A DNA stretch of 39,591 bases from Accumulibacter sp. (GTDB lineage Bacteria > Pseudomonadota > Gammaproteobacteria > Burkholderiales > Rhodocyclaceae). Where the stretch lies: positions 1 to 39,591 of the forward strand of contig NZ_JAMTDV010000024.1 of NCBI RefSeq assembly GCF_023806565.1, read 5' to 3'. This document shows positions 2,604 through 24,571 of the stretch, piece after piece. The notes beneath the pieces are model-generated. The model worked only from the letters and a program-made list of their open reading frames with translations. It had not been told where the DNA came from and did not search any database. The translations under genes and the position numbers were made by a program. Numbering within the stretch: position 1 is the stretch's first letter; the number at the start of each line of letters is the position of its first letter.

Positions 2604-3003
2604 CGCATGCTCGCTTCCTGTTCAGTCGGCGCCACCGGCCTGGGCACGCTTGCCGTTGCGCCAGCGCCTGCGCGCGGTCGTGCGCGCCGCAGGCAGAGGT
2701 CATGCGTCCGCGGTGTGCGCGCCAGGCGGGCAGTACCCGGTCCGCAGGCGCCACACCCGCGCGGAATCAACGCCCGCCTCTGCTGCCCCCCTTGTCCCAG
2801 CCGTAGCGGGCGGTGCGTTGCCAGCGGGCATCGGCGCGGCGCAGGTCGGCAGCCGGCGGGCTTGCCGCGGTGGCCTGCTGGCGAGTGGTCTTGAGCGATC
2901 GTCGAAGGGAACGGGAAGGCCTGGCGTTCATCGGTTTGCGCCGCGAGGGGGCGGCTGGCGCTGTGGTAGACTTTGCCGTCATTCTAGCGCGCAAGAGGCG
3001 GCC
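2604..3003. other. 400-bp intergenic region between the 237-aa membrane protein gene and aroC
   Basis: This gap separates two divergent genes. It holds one possible 54-codon minus-strand ORF, listed separately, and the aroC leader. A weak -10-like TAGACT lies at 2967-2972 with no convincing -35 box. I see no RNA gene, repeat or terminator here. Confidence 0.5.
2767..2931 (-). CDS. Possible small basic protein (54 aa), unrecognised
   Basis: A 54-codon ORF reading [20 protein letters not shown] and ending in a [13 protein letters not shown]-type tail, with its ATG at 2931 and a TGA at 2767-2769. It is strongly basic, with several Arg/Lys clusters and a Trp/Tyr-containing C-terminus that looks protein-like. 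It shows no clear Shine-Dalgarno. It could be a short DNA- or ribosome-associated protein, or a chance ORF in GC-rich DNA. Low confidence. Confidence 0.25.
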
Positions 3004-5690: not shown

Positions 5691-6517
5691 GGTGCCCGCA
5701 ATCCTGGCTGCTGCTCTTCGCCATCGCGCTCGCCGCCGGTTGCGCCACGACCCGCACCACTGCACCCGGTGTGGTTGGCGTCAACCGGGAGCAAACCATG
5801 CTGGTCTCCTCGGGCGAGGTCGATCGCTCGGCGGCCAAGGCGTATCAGGAGACCCTGCGCGACGCGAAGGGCAGCAATCTGCTCAATCGCGATCCGCGCG
5901 AGGTCGAACGTGTGCGGCGCATCGCTGCGCGACTGATTCCGGCAACCGCCGCCTTCCGCAGCGATGCGCCGGGGTGGAACTGGGAGGTCAATGTCGTGAC
6001 TTCGCGCGAGCTCAACGCCTGGTGCATGCCGGGTGGCAAGATCGCGGTTTACAGCGGGCTGATCGAGCAACTGCAGCTCACCGACGACGAACTCGCCGCA
6101 GTCATGGCGCACGAAATCGCGCACGCCTTGCGCGAACACGGGCGCGAGAAGGCGGGGCAGGCGGCCGGCGTCAACGCGGCCGCGGCCATCGGTGGCGCCT
6201 TGCTGGGCGCGTATTTCGGGATCGATTCGGGGATCGGCCGCAGCGTCCTCGGTGGCGTCGGCGAACTCGCCTTCATGCGTCCGAACTCGCGTGAAATGGA
6301 ACAGGAAGCCGACCGCGTCGGCGTCGAGCTGGCGGCCCGCGCGGCGTATGACCCGCAGGCGGCGATCACGCTGTGGGAAAAGATGGAGCGGGCAGGAGGC
6401 GCACAAGCGCCACAGTGGCTATCGACGCATCCATCGCACGCATCGCGCCTCGCCGACCTGCGCGTGTACGCGGCGCGAGTGCAACCCCTGTACGCAGCCG
6501 CCCGCAAGTCCCGCTGA
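5687..6517 (+). CDS. M48-family zinc metallopeptidase lipoprotein (intact copy)
   Basis: A periplasmic M48 peptidase of 276 residues, of the kind linked to envelope protein quality control (BepA/LoiP-like group). The signal peptide MRCPQSWLLLFAIALAAGC ends in a lipobox with lipidated Cys19. The zinc motif HEIAH is at 142-146 (His142, Glu143, His146), and the third-ligand region EMEQEADRVG is at 203-212. A Gly/Ala-rich segment at 160-192 probably packs against the membrane. The start ATG overlaps the stop of the MFS gene by ATGA. The 3' part from codon 154 is duplicated at 8857-9228 downstream of the inserted element; this upstream copy is complete. Confidence 0.93.
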   Translation: MRCPQSWLLLFAIALAAGCATTRTTAPGVVGVNREQTMLVSSGEVDRSAAKAYQETLRDAKGSNLLNRDPREVERVRRIAARLIPATAAFRSDAPGWNWEVNVVTSRELNAWCMPGGKIAVYSGLIEQLQLTDDELAAVMAHEIAHALREHGREKAGQAAGVNAAAAIGGALLGAYFGIDSGIGRSVLGGVGELAFMRPNSREMEQEADRVGVELAARAAYDPQAAITLWEKMERAGGAQAPQWLSTHPSHASRLADLRVYAARVQPLYAAARKSR

Positions 6518-6535
6518 CTCGCCGCAAGCAAGCGG

Positions 6536-6565
6536 CAGACAGCGGCGACGACGCTGTGACATAAT
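6536..6565 (+). promoter_or_regulatory. Candidate leuC promoter, left (orphaned) copy
   Basis: CAGACA (6536-6541) and CATAAT (6560-6565), separated by 18 bp, resemble sigma70 -35 and -10 boxes ahead of the truncated leuC fragment. The identical sequence recurs at 9247-9276 before the intact leuC. This copy could transcribe into the inserted element and its ATPase gene. Confidence 0.4.
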
Positions 6566-6617
6566 CGGAACCCTCGAACCGGCCCACGCGGGCCCAGACT
6601 CGCCGGATTGACAAGCG

Positions 6618-6684
6618 ATGCCGCAGACCCTGTCCGAAAGGCTTTGGCAGGGCCGCGTAGGCCATCAGGAAGCCGATGGCACCG
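6618..6684 (+). pseudogene. leuC: leuC 5' fragment (22 codons), truncated by the insertion
   Basis: Reads MPQTLSERLWQGRVGHQEAD, against [20 protein letters not shown] in the intact gene at 9329. Tyr6, Lys8, Asp12, His13 and Val15 of the normal LeuC N-terminus are replaced by Ser, Arg, Gly, Arg and Gly, so this copy is drifting. Homology stops at 6684, ten bases before the left inverted repeat of the element. It makes no functional product. Confidence 0.85.
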
Positions 6685-6694
6685 GAGAGTTGGT

Positions 6695-6724
6695 GGCCAG
6701 TTCTCGTATTGGCACATTGAATGC
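6695..6724 (+). repeat. Left terminal inverted repeat of the element
   Basis: Starts GGCCAGTTCTCGTATTGGCA. It matches the complement of 8800-8829 at 27 of 30 positions. A subterminal hairpin also exists here: CAGTTCTCG at 6698-6706 pairs with CGAGAACTG at 6732-6740, which may be a further transposase-binding copy. Confidence 0.75.
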
Positions 6725-6789
6725 AATCACGCGAGAACTGATCCCTCTTGCGCTATTCTTTAGGCCTCTTCCACACCTAGGAAACCAGC

Positions 6790-8259
6790 ATGCTGCGTAG
6801 TGAGATCAGAGAATCAACAAAGCAGGAGCTTCTCAAGAAGGTTCGAGAACATGACTACGGTAAATATCTCCTAAAAGCTAGCATATTAAAAATAAGGGGA
6901 TTCTCTGAAGAGGATATAACATTCGAATTTCCCGTTACCGCCTTGATTGGCCCTAACGGAGGTGGGAAGTCTTCTGTACTTGGCGTAGCAGGATGTGCAT
7001 ACAAAGACATAAAACCAGGCCTGTTCTTCCCAAAAAGCGCCGTTGGCGACGAGTCAATGTCTGGCTGGCGTATTGAATATGAGTTGATTGACAAAACACT
7101 AAATCCGAAGCAGCTGACCAAGCGCTCCTCCAACTTCCGACAAGCAAAGTGGGTAAGGGGCGACGTTGTTATCCGTGAAGTTTTGTTCTTTGGTATTGAA
7201 CGAACTGTTCCCGCTGGAGAGAAGGCAAGATACAAACGACTCATGCGTTCAACATACGTTCACAAACCTCCGCTTGAAGCTATCGACTCAACAGTAGCGA
7301 AGCAGGTTGAACATATTCTCGGAAAGCCTGTCTCTAATTATCAGGTTACTGACTATGGGTCGGATGACAAATTTCTGGTAGGCAAGTCGGATGGAAATAA
7401 ATTCTCGGAATTTCACTTTGGTGCTGGCGAATCTTCCATAATTCGCATGGTAACAAAGATTGAACAAGCACCACAAAATAGCCTGATTCTAATAGAGGAA
7501 ATAGAGAACGGCTTACATCCAATCGCCACAAAGCGCATGGTCGAATACCTTATCGATGTTGCGTCGAGAAAGTCATTGCAAGCGATATTTACCACTCATA
7601 GCGATTACGCACTTTCCCCACTCCCCAATGAGGCCATATGGGCAAGCATAAGTGGGAAGTTGCGCCAAGGAAAATTATCGGTCGAGGCATTACGCGCCGT
7701 ATCCGGACGAGTGGACAAAAAACTAGCGATCTTCGTAGAAGATGAATTCGCAAAGACCTGGGTTGACGCAATTCTACGCGAGAAACTTGGGGCATCATAT
7801 GATCAGGTAGAAGTCCATGCAGTGCATGGGGATGGGAATGCTGTAAAAACGCACAATGGGCACCTCCTCAACCCGGCAATTAATTTCAAGTCACTTTGCG
7901 TAATTGATGGCGACTCAAAGCAAGATGATAAACCGGAAGACGGAATTTACCGCCTTCCTGGATCACAGCCGGAATTGACCGTTTTTGAATCAGTGAGGAA
8001 TAATCTAGACGAAAATATTGCAATCCTTACGGTCTCCTGTCAAAGAGCACCGGATGCGCAAGCCCGTGTCAAAAATGTAATCGAGAGCATTTCAAGGACC
8101 AACAGAGACCCACATGTAATATTTAGTCAGGTTGGCATAGAAATTGGGTTCGTAGCCGAAGCCATTGTTCGAGGCGCTTTCTTGGCCCTATGGATTCGTG
8201 CCAACACTGATTTTTGTGATGTTTTTTCTAATGCTGTTCGCAAGAAAATTGGGGCCTAA
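6790..8259 (+). CDS. ABC-type AAA ATPase with TOPRIM-like C-terminal domain (OLD-family-like), candidate defence protein
   Basis: A 489-residue protein. Visible in order: N-terminal beta strands ILKIRGFSEEDITFEF; Walker A GPNGGGKS at 54-61; an insert of about 140 residues; an ABC-signature-like FGAGESS at 210-216; Walker B SLILIEEIENGLHP from 231 with catalytic Glu236/237; and a switch His in TTHS at 268-271. The C-terminal part has TOPRIM-like acidic motifs, IFVEDE at 314-319 and VIDGDSK at 371-377. This is the layout of OLD-family nucleases and their relatives (GajA of Gabija, AAA/TOPRIM effectors), known for anti-phage DNA cleavage or abortive infection. ATG 6790 has AGGAAA (6780-6785) upstream. 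Composition is far AT-richer than its neighbours, indicating transfer. The TAA stop lies inside an attC-like GCCTAAC box. No partner gene is adjacent. Confidence 0.85.
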   Translation: MLRSEIRESTKQELLKKVREHDYGKYLLKASILKIRGFSEEDITFEFPVTALIGPNGGGKSSVLGVAGCAYKDIKPGLFFPKSAVGDESMSGWRIEYELIDKTLNPKQLTKRSSNFRQAKWVRGDVVIREVLFFGIERTVPAGEKARYKRLMRSTYVHKPPLEAIDSTVAKQVEHILGKPVSNYQVTDYGSDDKFLVGKSDGNKFSEFHFGAGESSIIRMVTKIEQAPQNSLILIEEIENGLHPIATKRMVEYLIDVASRKSLQAIFTTHSDYALSPLPNEAIWASISGKLRQGKLSVEALRAVSGRVDKKLAIFVEDEFAKTWVDAILREKLGASYDQVEVHAVHGDGNAVKTHNGHLLNPAINFKSLCVIDGDSKQDDKPEDGIYRLPGSQPELTVFESVRNNLDENIAILTVSCQRAPDAQARVKNVIESISRTNRDPHVIFSQVGIEIGFVAEAIVRGAFLALWIRANTDFCDVFSNAVRKKIGA

Positions 8260-8317
8260 CGAATAAGGTTAGATCGTGCGAGCGACGCGAAGCCACGATC
8301 TGAAGCGTTTGTTGGAC
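8254..8317 (+). other. Integron attC-like recombination site
   Basis: GCCTAAC (8254-8260) fits the R'' consensus RYYYAAC, and GTTGGAC (8311-8317) fits the R' consensus GTTRRRY. Between them AGATCGTG (8271-8278) and CACGATCT (8294-8301) are perfect 8-bp arms with a 15-nt loop, as expected for L''/L' pairing. The 64-bp total is within the normal attC size. The ATPase stop codon TAA falls inside R'', a common arrangement in gene cassettes. No GTTRRRY cassette boundary is found upstream of the ATPase gene and no integrase is in the window, so a relic cassette is the likely reading. Confidence 0.55.
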
Positions 8318-8320
8318 GAG

Positions 8321-8369
8321 CCCTGGGGAGCCCCGGGGAAGCCCAGGGGGACATAGAAAATATGTCTTT
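8321..8369 (+). terminator. Hairpin cluster after the ATPase gene, weak terminator candidate
   Basis: CCCTGGG (8321-8327) pairs with CCCAGGG (8342-8348) around an inner CCCCGGGG. A second hairpin follows, GACATA (8350-8355) with TATGTC (8361-8366), and then only three T residues. It could slow or end transcription from the ATPase gene. The short T-run makes intrinsic termination uncertain. Confidence 0.35.
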
Positions 8370-8407
8370 GGGAAATAGCCCGGCTGGGCGTTCTGGCAGG
8401 CTGCCGA

Positions 8408-8458
8408 GCAGGCGGCGGGGTCAGTCAGCAGGCGGCGGGGTCAGAGACGGCGGGGTCA
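8408..8458. repeat. Short tandem repeat, three copies of GGCGGGGTCA
   Basis: A 17-bp unit (8408-8424) recurs exactly at 8428-8444 with a 20-bp period. A third partial copy shares GGCGGGGTCA at 8449-8458. Only two full units exist, so it is not a CRISPR array. Confidence 0.8.
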
Positions 8459-8462
8459 CCCA

Positions 8463-8705
8463 TTAGCCGGCTCCGGTCAACAAGGCGAACAAATTTGTTC
8501 GCGCTGTAGGGGCGACATATTTTTCGTTGCCCGCACTCTTGGCATTCCCTCGACGATCGCGCGCAGGTTTTCGTTCTTGCGGTGTCGGAACCGGTCCGCA
8601 CCAGTCACCCATCAGGATCAAGGCCTTCGTCCGGCGCGAGTCCGGATGACGCCCCTGGCCGCCATGGCGGCCCCAGAAAACCGTCGGTGCCCTACGCGTG
8701 TCCAT
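8463..8705 (-). CDS. Doubtful 80-aa ORF inside the element
   Basis: The 80-residue reading begins MDTRRAPTVFWGRHGGQGRH and ends with an NEKYVAPTARTNLFALL-type tail, rich in Arg, Gly and Pro. No domain or signal is recognisable. It covers the palindromic non-coding part of the element and crosses both large palindromes (8485-8502 and 8657-8672), so it is more likely a reading of a conserved DNA structure than a gene. Kept only because it spans most of an otherwise gene-free stretch. Confidence 0.2.
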   Translation of the reverse strand: MDTRRAPTVFWGRHGGQGRHPDSRRTKALILMGDWCGPVPTPQERKPARDRRGNAKSAGNEKYVAPTARTNLFALLTGAG

Positions 8706-8799
8706 GTCCTACGGCTCGCGCCGATGACAGATCTGTGGTTGCCCGAAGATGGGGTTTCGGGCACCAACCGCTGCGAACGGCGTCAGGTCTCGCGCGATC

Positions 8800-8829
8800 G
8801 CATTTAAGGTGCCAATGCGAGAACTGGCC
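8800..8829 (-). repeat. Right terminal inverted repeat of the element
   Basis: Ends GTGCCAATGCGAGAACTGGC plus C at 8829. It is complementary to 6695-6724 with three mismatches. A 27-bp stretch of unassigned sequence (8830-8856) separates it from the right copy of the chromosomal repeat. Confidence 0.75.
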
Positions 8830-8856
8830 TCGAATCACTACCCCAACCGCGAACTC

Positions 8857-9228
8857 GAGAAAGCGCGGCAGGCGGCCGGGGTCAGTGCTGCCGCGGCCAT
8901 CGGTGGCGCCTTGCTGGGCGCGTATTTCGGGATCGATTCGGGGATCGGCCGCAGCGTCCTCGGTGGCGTCGGCGAACTCGCCTTCATGCGTCCGAACTCG
9001 CGTGAAATGGAACAGGAAGCCGACCGCGTCGGCGTCGAGCTGGCGGCCCGCGCGGCGTATGACCCGCAGGCGGCGATCACGCTGTGGGAAAAGATGGAGC
9101 GGGCAGGAGGCGCACAAGCGCCACAGTGGCTATCGACGCATCCATCGCACGCATCGCGCCTCGCCGACCTGCGCGTGTACGCGGCGCGAGTGCAACCCCT
9201 GTACGCAGCCGCCCGCAAGTCCCGCTGA
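8857..9228 (+). pseudogene. M48 peptidase 3' fragment (codons 154-276)
   Basis: Encodes the last 123 residues of the lipoprotein peptidase from EKARQAAGVSAAAAIGG to the same stop, but lacks the signal peptide and the HEIAH zinc motif. Its first codons differ from the intact gene (Gly-to-Arg and Asn-to-Ser among them). An open frame extends back into the element to 8749 through the right inverted repeat, which would give a chimeric, inactive product. Interpreted as a by-product of the duplication. Confidence 0.85.
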
Positions 9229-9246
9229 CTCGCCGCAAGCAAGCGG

Positions 9247-9276
9247 CAGACAGCGGCGACGACGCTGTGACATAAT
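9247..9276 (+). promoter_or_regulatory. Candidate leuC promoter, working copy
   Basis: CAGACA (9247-9252), an 18-bp spacer and CATAAT (9271-9276) sit about 50 bp before the intact leuC ATG. It lies inside the identical core of the direct repeat, so leuC kept its native control region after the insertion. Confidence 0.45.
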
Positions 9277-9328
9277 CGAAACCCTCGAACCGGCCCACAC
9301 GGGCCCAGACTTGCCGGATTGACAAGCC

Positions 9329-10735
9329 ATGCCGCAGACCCTCTACGAAAAGCTTTGGCAGGATCACGTAGTCCATCAGGAAGCCGATGGCACCGCGCTG
9401 ATCTATATCGATCGCCACCTGGTGCACGAAGTGACCAGCCCGCAGGCATTCGAGGGACTCAAGCTGGCTGGTCGCAAGCCCTGGCGCGTTTCCTCGATCG
9501 TCGCCACCGCGGATCACAACACGCCCACCGATCACTGGGATCGCGGCATCGAGGATCCGGTGTCGCGCCTGCAGGTCGAGACGCTGGACGCCAATATTCG
9601 CGAAGTCGGCGCGCTCGCCTATTTCCCTTTCCGCGATCCGCGCCAGGGCATCGTGCATGTCGTCGGCCCGGAGAGTGGCGCCACGCTGCCGGGAATGACG
9701 GTCGTCTGTGGCGACTCGCATACCAGCACGCACGGCGCGTTTGCCTGCATGGCGCACGGCATCGGCACCTCCGAGGTCGAGCATGTGCTGGCGACGCAAT
9801 GTCTGCTGCAGAAGCGCTCGAAAACCATGCTGGTGCGTGTCGAAGGCGTGCTCGGCAAGGGCGTGACGGCGAAGGACGTGGCGCTGGCGATCATCGGTCG
9901 TATCGGCACCGCGGGCGGCACCGGTTATGCCATCGAGTTCGGCGGCAGCGTGCTCCGCGCCCTGTCGATGGAGGGGCGCATGACGATCTGCAACATGGCG
10001 ATCGAGGCCGGCGCGCGCCTCGGCCTGGTGGCGGTGGACGAGGTGACGATCGACTATCTGCGCGGCCGTCCGCTGGCGCCCAAGGGCCACCTCTGGGAGC
10101 AGGCAGTCGCCGCCTGGCGCCAGCTGCACAGCGACGCCGACGCCAGTTTCGATCGCGTCGTCGACATCTCTGGCGACGAAATCCGGCCGCAGGTGACCTG
10201 GGGCACGTCGCCCGAGATGGTCGTGCCGGTCGATTCCTGCGTTCCTGATCCGTCCAGCGAGCCGGACCCGGTGAAGCGCGAAGGGATGGAACGTGCGCTG
10301 CGCTACATGGGGCTGCGCGCGCGCCAGCCGATTCGGGAGATCCGGCTGGACAAGATTTTCATCGGCTCGTGCACCAACTCGCGCATCGAGGACCTGCGCG
10401 CGGCGGCCGCAGTCGTCCAGGGGCGCAAGGTCGCTGACGGTATCCGCCTGGCGCTGGTTGTTCCCGGTTCGGGCCTGGTCAAGCGGCAGGCAGAGGACGA
10501 AGGGCTGGATCGGGTCTTCCGCGCCGCCGGCTTCGAGTGGCGGGAGCCCGGCTGCTCGATGTGCCTGGCGATGAATGCCGATCGTCTACAGCCCGGCGAA
10601 CGCTGCGCCTCGACCTCGAACCGCAATTTCGAGGGGCGGCAGGGCACCGGCGGACGCACACACCTGGTCAGCCCGGAGATGGCGGCGGCGGCGGCGATCG
10701 CCGGGCATTTCTGTGACGTCGACGAGTGGCAGTAG
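9329..10735 (+). CDS. leuC: 3-isopropylmalate dehydratase large subunit
   Basis: Isomerises 2-isopropylmalate to 3-isopropylmalate with LeuD in leucine synthesis. The 468-residue length is normal. The N-terminus [20 protein letters not shown] and [20 protein letters not shown] are canonical. The [4Fe-4S] cysteines are Cys348 (GSCTNSR), Cys409 and Cys412 (GCSMC). [11 protein letters not shown] and the C-terminal [20 protein letters not shown] are also present. It is the first gene of a leuC-(entericidin)-leuD-leuB-asd run. No strong Shine-Dalgarno is visible. Its first 67 bases are duplicated at 6618 on the far side of the inserted element. Confidence 0.97.
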
Positions 10736-23563: not shown

Positions 23564-24571
23564 ATGACCGAAACCCCTGACCCGCAACTGCAACTCAAGA
23601 AACGGGCCCGCCGCCGCCTCGTCGGGGCGGTGGCGTTTGCCGGGCTGGCTGCGGTGATCCTGCCGATGGTCATGGACGACGAACCCAGGCAGCCAGTGCA
23701 GGAAGTTCCGATACGCATTCCCGGCCAGGATCAGGTGCCTCCCTTCAACCCCCCGGGGTTGGCGGCCAAGGCTGCGCCGGCAGCAGCGACGACCGGTGCC
23801 GCGGTGGTCAGTGGTGACGAGCAAGCCAAGGCGTCCGGCACCTCGCAGCCGGCAGCGCCGCCAGTGGCCAAGGCGTCGGCCGAGACGAGCGACAAGGCAG
23901 GCGGCAAGGTGCCGGAAAAGAAGGTCGCCAAACCGGCGGAGAAGCCGGCGGAGAAGCCGGCGGAGAAGAAGACGAGCAAGGCAGCAGAAGGGCCTCCCGA
24001 CAAAAAGGCAGTCGTCAAGCCGCCAGAAAAGCCAGCCGAGAAGGCTGTGGAGAAAAAGCCGCCTGCGCCGGTGGCAAGCCCGCCGGCCGACAAGACCACC
24101 GACAAGAAACTTGCCAAAGCCGCCGAGAAGCCGGTCGAGAAGAAGGTCGAAAAAAGCCCGGAGAAGACCCCGGAGAAGGCGGCCGAAAAGGTGCCCGCCA
24201 AGAAAGTCGAAAAGCCGGCCGAGAAACCGTCAGCCGATTCGCCGACCGACGATTCCGCCAAGGCTACTGCGGAAGATGCCCCGCACGCCAGCCCGGCACC
24301 TGCCGGCAAGCCGGCGGAAGGCGCTGCCGCCAAACCGGCCGGGCAGCAGGTGATTCTGATCGGCACCTTTGCCAACCCGGAAAACGCCAAGCAACTGCAG
24401 AGCAAGATTGGCGGCGCCGGTGTCAATAGCTATACCGAAGTGCTCGACACTGCGGAGGGCAAGAAAATTCGCGTCCGTGCCGGGCCTTTCGCAACTCGCG
24501 AGGCCGCCGAGAAAGCGCTCGAACGCTTGAAGAAGGCGGGTGTGACCGGAGTTGTCGCCGGCCGGCAATGA
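23564..24571 (+). CDS. SPOR-domain cell-envelope protein (DedD-like)
   Basis: A 335-residue, type II-oriented inner-membrane protein. A basic N-terminus (LQLKKRARRRLVG) precedes one transmembrane helix (GAVAFAGLAAVILPMVM). A long, low-complexity Lys/Ala/Pro/Glu linker follows (about 65-255) with many PAEKPAEK-type repeats. The C-terminal SPOR domain (about 260-335, VILIGTFANPENAKQLQSKI to FATREAAEKALERLKKAG) binds denuded septal peptidoglycan. The folC-dedD-cvpA-purF order also occurs in E. coli, so it is probably the DedD equivalent acting in division. Its stop overlaps the cvpA start. Confidence 0.9.
   Translation: MTETPDPQLQLKKRARRRLVGAVAFAGLAAVILPMVMDDEPRQPVQEVPIRIPGQDQVPPFNPPGLAAKAAPAAATTGAAVVSGDEQAKASGTSQPAAPPVAKASAETSDKAGGKVPEKKVAKPAEKPAEKPAEKKTSKAAEGPPDKKAVVKPPEKPAEKAVEKKPPAPVASPPADKTTDKKLAKAAEKPVEKKVEKSPEKTPEKAAEKVPAKKVEKPAEKPSADSPTDDSAKATAEDAPHASPAPAGKPAEGAAAKPAGQQVILIGTFANPENAKQLQSKIGGAGVNSYTEVLDTAEGKKIRVRAGPFATREAAEKALERLKKAGVTGVVAGRQ

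Follow-up and report, generated by a model that had tools for sequence, protein, structure and literature searches.

Direct copies of a chromosomal segment that flank foreign DNA are familiar from Campbell-type merodiploids and from tandem duplications with DNA at the joint. In such structures the neighbouring genes are functional and the foreign DNA can be removed by recombination. Here we describe a locus of the same layout on a contig of Accumulibacter sp., in which a segment joining an M48 metallopeptidase gene to leuC stands on both sides of an insert with an integron cassette that encodes a HEC-04 ATPase. The window analysed spans contig C24 (39,591 bp) from end to end, and the draft genome comprises 3.71 Mb in 139 contigs. 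Relatives are labelled G followed by a number, the genome itself being G000 with contigs labelled C, and individual loci are labelled L. The present case differs from these structures in that it is natural and apparently old, with diverged edges, an identical core and a lone integron cassette inside.

Tandem duplication can set genes behind a different promoter, and a precedent is the PatAB duplication of Streptococcus pneumoniae, which the excerpt of PMC4432121 describes as 9.2 kb long, semistable and found in a laboratory mutant. The segment here measures 0.54 kb and has a 2.2-kb insert, whereas that excerpt mentions no foreign insert, and the role of the promoter here is predicted. A single attC lacking integron-integrase has been termed SALIN in PMC12690207, whereas the wording of PMC9024848 is CALIN with a single attC. 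Our locus shares with SALIN, as defined there, the single cassette, the single attC and a contig without an integrase gene, but it adjoins a dispersed repeat and lies between duplicated host segments. According to PMC12111858, HEC-04 is active in E. coli against T4 and T5 and not against T7 or lambda, and IbfA, called homologous, is reported as a defence factor. The likeness of our protein to this HEC-04/IbfA anti-phage protein lies in a match to the full-length PADLOC HEC-04 profile, which makes it a putative anti-phage protein. Anti-phage genes in integron cassettes have been described in works cited in PMC12444791; a likely defence gene in the form of a cassette is common to them and to our locus, where it lies outside an array.

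Table 1. Features of the duplicated segment and of the insert, with positions in the window.
Feature	Position	Strand	Basis or remark
M48 metallopeptidase gene, whole, 276 aa	5687..6517	+	Pfam PF01435 E=1.7e-38
Left copy of segment (M48 3' end, intergenic promoter region, leuC 5' end)	6146..6684	+	alignment with 8857-9395
Promoter-like site, left copy, pointing at HEC-04	6536..6565	+	CAGACA, 18 nt, TG-extended CATAAT
Broken leuC 5' end, ~22 codons	6618..6684	+	alignment and translation
47-bp dispersed repeat, left copy	6695..6741	+	hairpin -10.7 kcal/mol, z -4.3
Integron gene cassette	6760..8311	+	5' TTAGGC complements 3' GCCTAAC
HEC-04, 489 aa, AAA-ATPase domain	6790..8259	+	PADLOC HEC-04 E=7.5e-219 over 1-487; Pfam AAA_21, AAA_15
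attC site	8254..8317	+	GCCTAAC...GTTGGAC; 81% identical over 67 query bases to attC ending own contig C121
323-bp dispersed repeat of genus	8451..8773	+	76-89% identical in G021, G009, G019; partial in G002, G043, own C18
47-bp dispersed repeat, right copy, inverted	8783..8829	-	fold no better than shuffles (z -0.4)
Right copy of segment (broken M48 3' end, to 9228, and native leuC start)	8857..9395	+	alignment
Promoter-like site, native copy, before leuC	9247..9276	+	identical to 6536-6565
leuC, whole, 468 aa	9329..10735	+	Pfam PF00330 E=2.9e-174

The two copies of the segment (Table 1) were found to be direct copies at a constant offset of 2711, with no gaps and 522 of 539 positions identical. 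The first-pass annotation had described them as gapless copies in perfect register; the register is indeed exact, but the identity is not, as the copies differ at 17 positions, all of them at the edges. Its claim that both flanking genes are intact was confirmed with Pfam, M48 being whole upstream and leuC downstream. As read in the translations, the downstream M48 fragment begins past the zinc-binding HEIAH motif and is without that part. The frame of the leuC stub continues to a stop at 6798-6800 and overlaps the HEC-04 start at 6790. Between the copies lie 2172 bp (6685-8856), and from inverted repeat to inverted repeat the distance is 2135 bp (6695-8829). A similarity search of the genome (E <= 0.001) found the segment at these two places and nowhere else. 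The layout of segment, insert and segment is real. With in-register direct copies around foreign DNA and one whole gene on each side, the structure is most likely a merodiploid insertion-duplication of a known kind. As to its origin, we give close to an even chance to the reading, drawn from the sequence, that one insertion-duplication event by template switching was followed by gene conversion, and that a spare leuC promoter now drives HEC-04.

The junction was searched for in the genome and 40 relatives, with some match in 29 of the 41, and ten same-genus relatives were fetched. In nine of these, M48 runs into leuC without an insert to window position 9699 or beyond, which provides the insert-free single copy that the first-pass annotation had proposed to look for; the stretch between the two genes is longer in G018, which is among the nine. 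In the tenth relative, G021, leuC is deleted: it breaks off after about codon 22 and its own 3' end follows directly. The cut in G021 (contig C31, L057, ~2900-3000) falls within ~5 bp of the cut point here, and GGCA is shared at the joint as judged by eye. At the same G021 locus leuD and leuB appear reduced to stubs when read from the sequence, and another contig of G021 carries a leuC that is 57% identical.

Next we considered where the copies differ. Six of the differences fall in the first 33 bp and 11 in the last 117 bp, with none in the 389-bp core between them. When 17 differences were placed at random 200,000 times, the longest clean run was 325 bp, and 389 bp was never reached (0/200,000). 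The M48 part of the core had a mean identity of 0.745 to the ten relatives, as compared to 0.76 for the left edge in the left copy and 0.71 in the right copy, and it is not specially conserved toward relatives. At 6634, 6640, 6652, 6655 and 6661 the leuC stub has a derived base, whereas the native copy agrees with all ten relatives. At 6632 and 6653, both third codon positions, the native copy is the one without the commoner base (8/10 and 9/10 relatives, respectively). These patterns suggest that the duplication is probably old and arose in place, that its unneeded ends decayed and that its core was homogenised by conversion. A diverged donor as the source of the edges is not needed for the leuC end but may be for the M48 end. 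Neither the edge divergence nor the identical core had been noticed in the first-pass annotation, nor had the bearing of the duplicated promoter on the inserted gene.

The same pattern bears on a Campbell-type origin, in which a circle with integron-derived DNA and a captured M48-leuC piece would have entered by one crossover within the homologous 539 bp, with the core homogenised afterwards by conversion or by repeated exit and entry. Such a circle gives the same layout, and diverged insert-linked edges around a chromosome-like core are expected after integration of a diverged circle with mismatch repair or repeated cycling. We regard it as the second most likely route, though still rather unlikely. 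It needs prior capture of the chromosomal piece, no further copy of which was found in the assembly, and the remaining insert showed neither a replication nor a recombination gene. Moreover, the changes at the leuC end are at sites invariant in relatives, unlike what another lineage's working sequence would have. We also weighed an artefact of assembly, including the case of a separate circle that collapsed into the contig by way of the identical 389 bp. In its favour are the draft state of the assembly and the length of the core, which exceeds that of a typical short read. As the copy edges differ, however, each junction needs reads of its own, and queries covering the junctions found the same joins nowhere else (E <= 0.001), each junction sequence being unique; we give an artefact little probability.

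The ends of the insert bear on two further routes. Only 10 bp separate one inverted repeat from the broken gene end next to it, and only 27 bp the other. No target duplication of at least 5 bp was found, as the 20 bp to the left and the 31 bp to the right of the inverted repeats share only two 4-bp matches, in agreement with the first-pass annotation. An older tandem duplication of the segment that was later hit by an element would fit the apparent age of the copies, and tandem duplications are common. The insertion would then have had to land almost exactly on the novel joint, with an unaligned flank of only 10 + 27 bp, and to this route we assign very little probability. Of the three mechanisms offered at first, integration of a circle and replication-coupled duplication thus stay in play, whereas the older duplication has become less likely. 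Unequal recombination between copies of the insert in M48 and in leuC, on sister or incoming chromosomes, would likewise leave one insert between duplicated pieces. It would explain the non-matching flanks without a target duplication, and the insert is bounded by inverted repeats. We consider it improbable, given that no transposase was found in the insert, that its ends are a small dispersed repeat which elsewhere is also direct-oriented, and that both points are free of insertions in all nine uninterrupted relatives.

Template switching is favoured because a single event yields exactly the order segment, insert, segment. The event would date from long ago, after the split from the sampled relatives. 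In a single illegitimate event, leuC would have been joined after about codon 22 to integron-derived DNA, and the other end of the foreign DNA would have been joined back to M48 ~540 bp upstream, so that the segment was duplicated and both host genes stayed whole. This could have come about during replication, with copying proceeding into leuC, switching to the foreign template and switching back upstream. Thereafter the broken gene ends would have degenerated, and the 389-bp core would have stayed identical through gene conversion of the RecA type. The insert would be excised cleanly by a crossover within this core. The layout, the pattern of edges and core, the uninterrupted sites of relatives, the cassette ends with the attC and the duplicated promoter motif are observed directly; we infer the route, the conversion and the excision, and for HEC-04 the expression and the defence role.

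Several observations weigh against this reading. No template copy of the insert was found in the assembly, which is a draft in 139 contigs. Homology of M48 reaching leftward into the insert is marginal, with 94 of 2000 shuffles as good, and on the leuC side no homology extends into the insert; microhomology at the junctions is not demonstrable. The left-edge sites 6151, 6174, 6175 and 6178 vary among relatives and are not polarisable. Identity to relatives is 0.69 in the intergenic core and 0.51 in the intergenic edge, and constraint could account there for some of the contrast between core and edge. Of the two inverted repeats, the left alone folds better than shuffles. Finally, the probability of finding no stop in the HEC-04 frame is 0.04 at the point estimate of decay and 0.33 at its lower bound, and by the latter value an unbroken frame is quite possible by chance. 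Strong selection on HEC-04 is accordingly not claimed, the unbroken frame being a weak hint of it.

The insert holds a lone integron cassette with an attC. We read it as a cassette because its two ends are complementary: GCCTAAC at 8254-8260 pairs with TTAGGC at 6760 in 6 of 7 bases, and two other HEC-04 loci (L013 and L015) pair in the full 7/7. Altogether the complement was present in 3 of the 15 HEC-04 loci tested and missing in 12, as compared to 0 of 2849 random placements. Against this, base 6759 is a T and not the G expected of a G^TT left boundary. The bottom strand of the attC forms a stem with an energy no better than that of shuffles (z -0.46). The genome has integron integrases scoring over the family cut-off, on C15 without a stop and on C121 with one stop; its 12 integrase-profile matches all fall on contigs other than C24. 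Contig C121 (L026, 1-1877) carries the end of an integron, made up of a single cassette, an attC where the contig ends, and an integrase gene interrupted by one in-frame stop.

HEC-04 occurs once in the genome and gave, besides its PADLOC match along the full length of the profile, a weak match to the ATPase-Toprim_I-B profile (E=6e-16). HEC-04 loci were returned 16 times from species genomes and once from viral contigs. Within the genus it was found in 2 of 28 genomes at E 1e-30, namely the genome itself and G019, the latter with only 28% identity. A tblastn search of 72,556 plasmids at E 1e-20 gave nine records, none of them from Salmonella, so IbfA itself is at best distant. The gene is likely a candidate anti-phage ATPase as judged from these profiles, and by analogy the present protein may provide the same phage defence.

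Cassettes are usually promoterless. The duplicated segment carries a conserved promoter motif, and thus its spare copy points through the leuC stub at HEC-04. Within 6480-6800, CAGACA-18-CATAAT was the sole site resembling a promoter (shuffle mean 0.0). Counted by eye, all ten relatives have TGTGnCATAATC ahead of the leuC start, and eight of them have a CTGACA-type upstream hexamer. HEC-04 may therefore be expressed from a spare host promoter, as predicted from the sequence.

Outside the cassette the insert is a patchwork. From left to right it consists of the 47-bp repeat, a short stretch that resembles an attC tail by eye, the cassette with its attC, a stretch with 74% resemblance to C63:93-174 of the same genome, the 323-bp repeat and the inverted 47-bp repeat. 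Pfam analysis found no transposase or recombinase in HEC-04, and no family at all (E <= 0.01) in ten other reading frames from the insert and its edges. The 47-bp repeat has four copies in the genome, with one 18-base match on C20. In 60 relatives nothing matched the repeat portion of the query (E <= 0.001), and 249 other genomes of the order gave one marginal match, in G216 (E 0.0035, 15.5 bits). The 18-base pattern with one mismatch was matched in 3 of 368 other genomes of the class, and two exact 18-base matches were found in viral contigs, in both cases without the rest of the repeat.

A transposon with 47-bp terminal repeats was considered and set aside, as the repeat is dispersed and direct-oriented on C134, there is no target duplication and a transposase was not found in the insert, which could at most be a non-autonomous element. 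The view of the insert as a mobile element, taken in the first-pass annotation, is therefore doubtful: its inverted ends are copies of a repeat present elsewhere in the genome and at best putative transposon ends. A REP/RAYT link was also rejected, since the loci fetched around the two Y1 transposase genes of the genome contained no copy of the repeat. C63 as an insertion sequence end beside the attC is not supported, because the recombinase-remnant part that matches other copies starts ~290 bp past the stretch shared with the insert. Rfam gave nothing at E <= 1 in 6000-9500 and nothing at gathering scores in the whole window.

The locus illustrates a way in which a defence cassette could turn into a chromosomal gene under a host promoter while a gene of amino-acid synthesis pays no price, and as a tidy natural example it lends itself to weighing gene conversion against deletional loss. 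As a probably old insertion-duplication it gains interest from its spare promoter and from the likely defence role of the cassette. It is also conceivable, if hardly probable, that the duplication itself is adaptive, as a recurrent and reversible exit of promoterless cassettes from the array, in which the cassette would gain a host promoter, the host gene would remain unharmed and gene conversion would preserve the exit. Listings of titles and abstract starts from an open-licence library gave no title on a cassette between duplicated host segments, no query having been aimed solely at that phrase.

Additionally, two direct copies of the 47-bp repeat were seen on C134 (L025, 5120-5187 and 5879-5948), 760 bp apart, with a frame between them that is presumably YbhB-like. 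One 6.5-kb stretch of G021 (L065) contains one full and two partial matches of the 323-bp repeat. Elsewhere in the window, at 23902-24350, there are imperfect GAGAAGCCG-rich repeats in nine 47-nt copies, which are probably coding.

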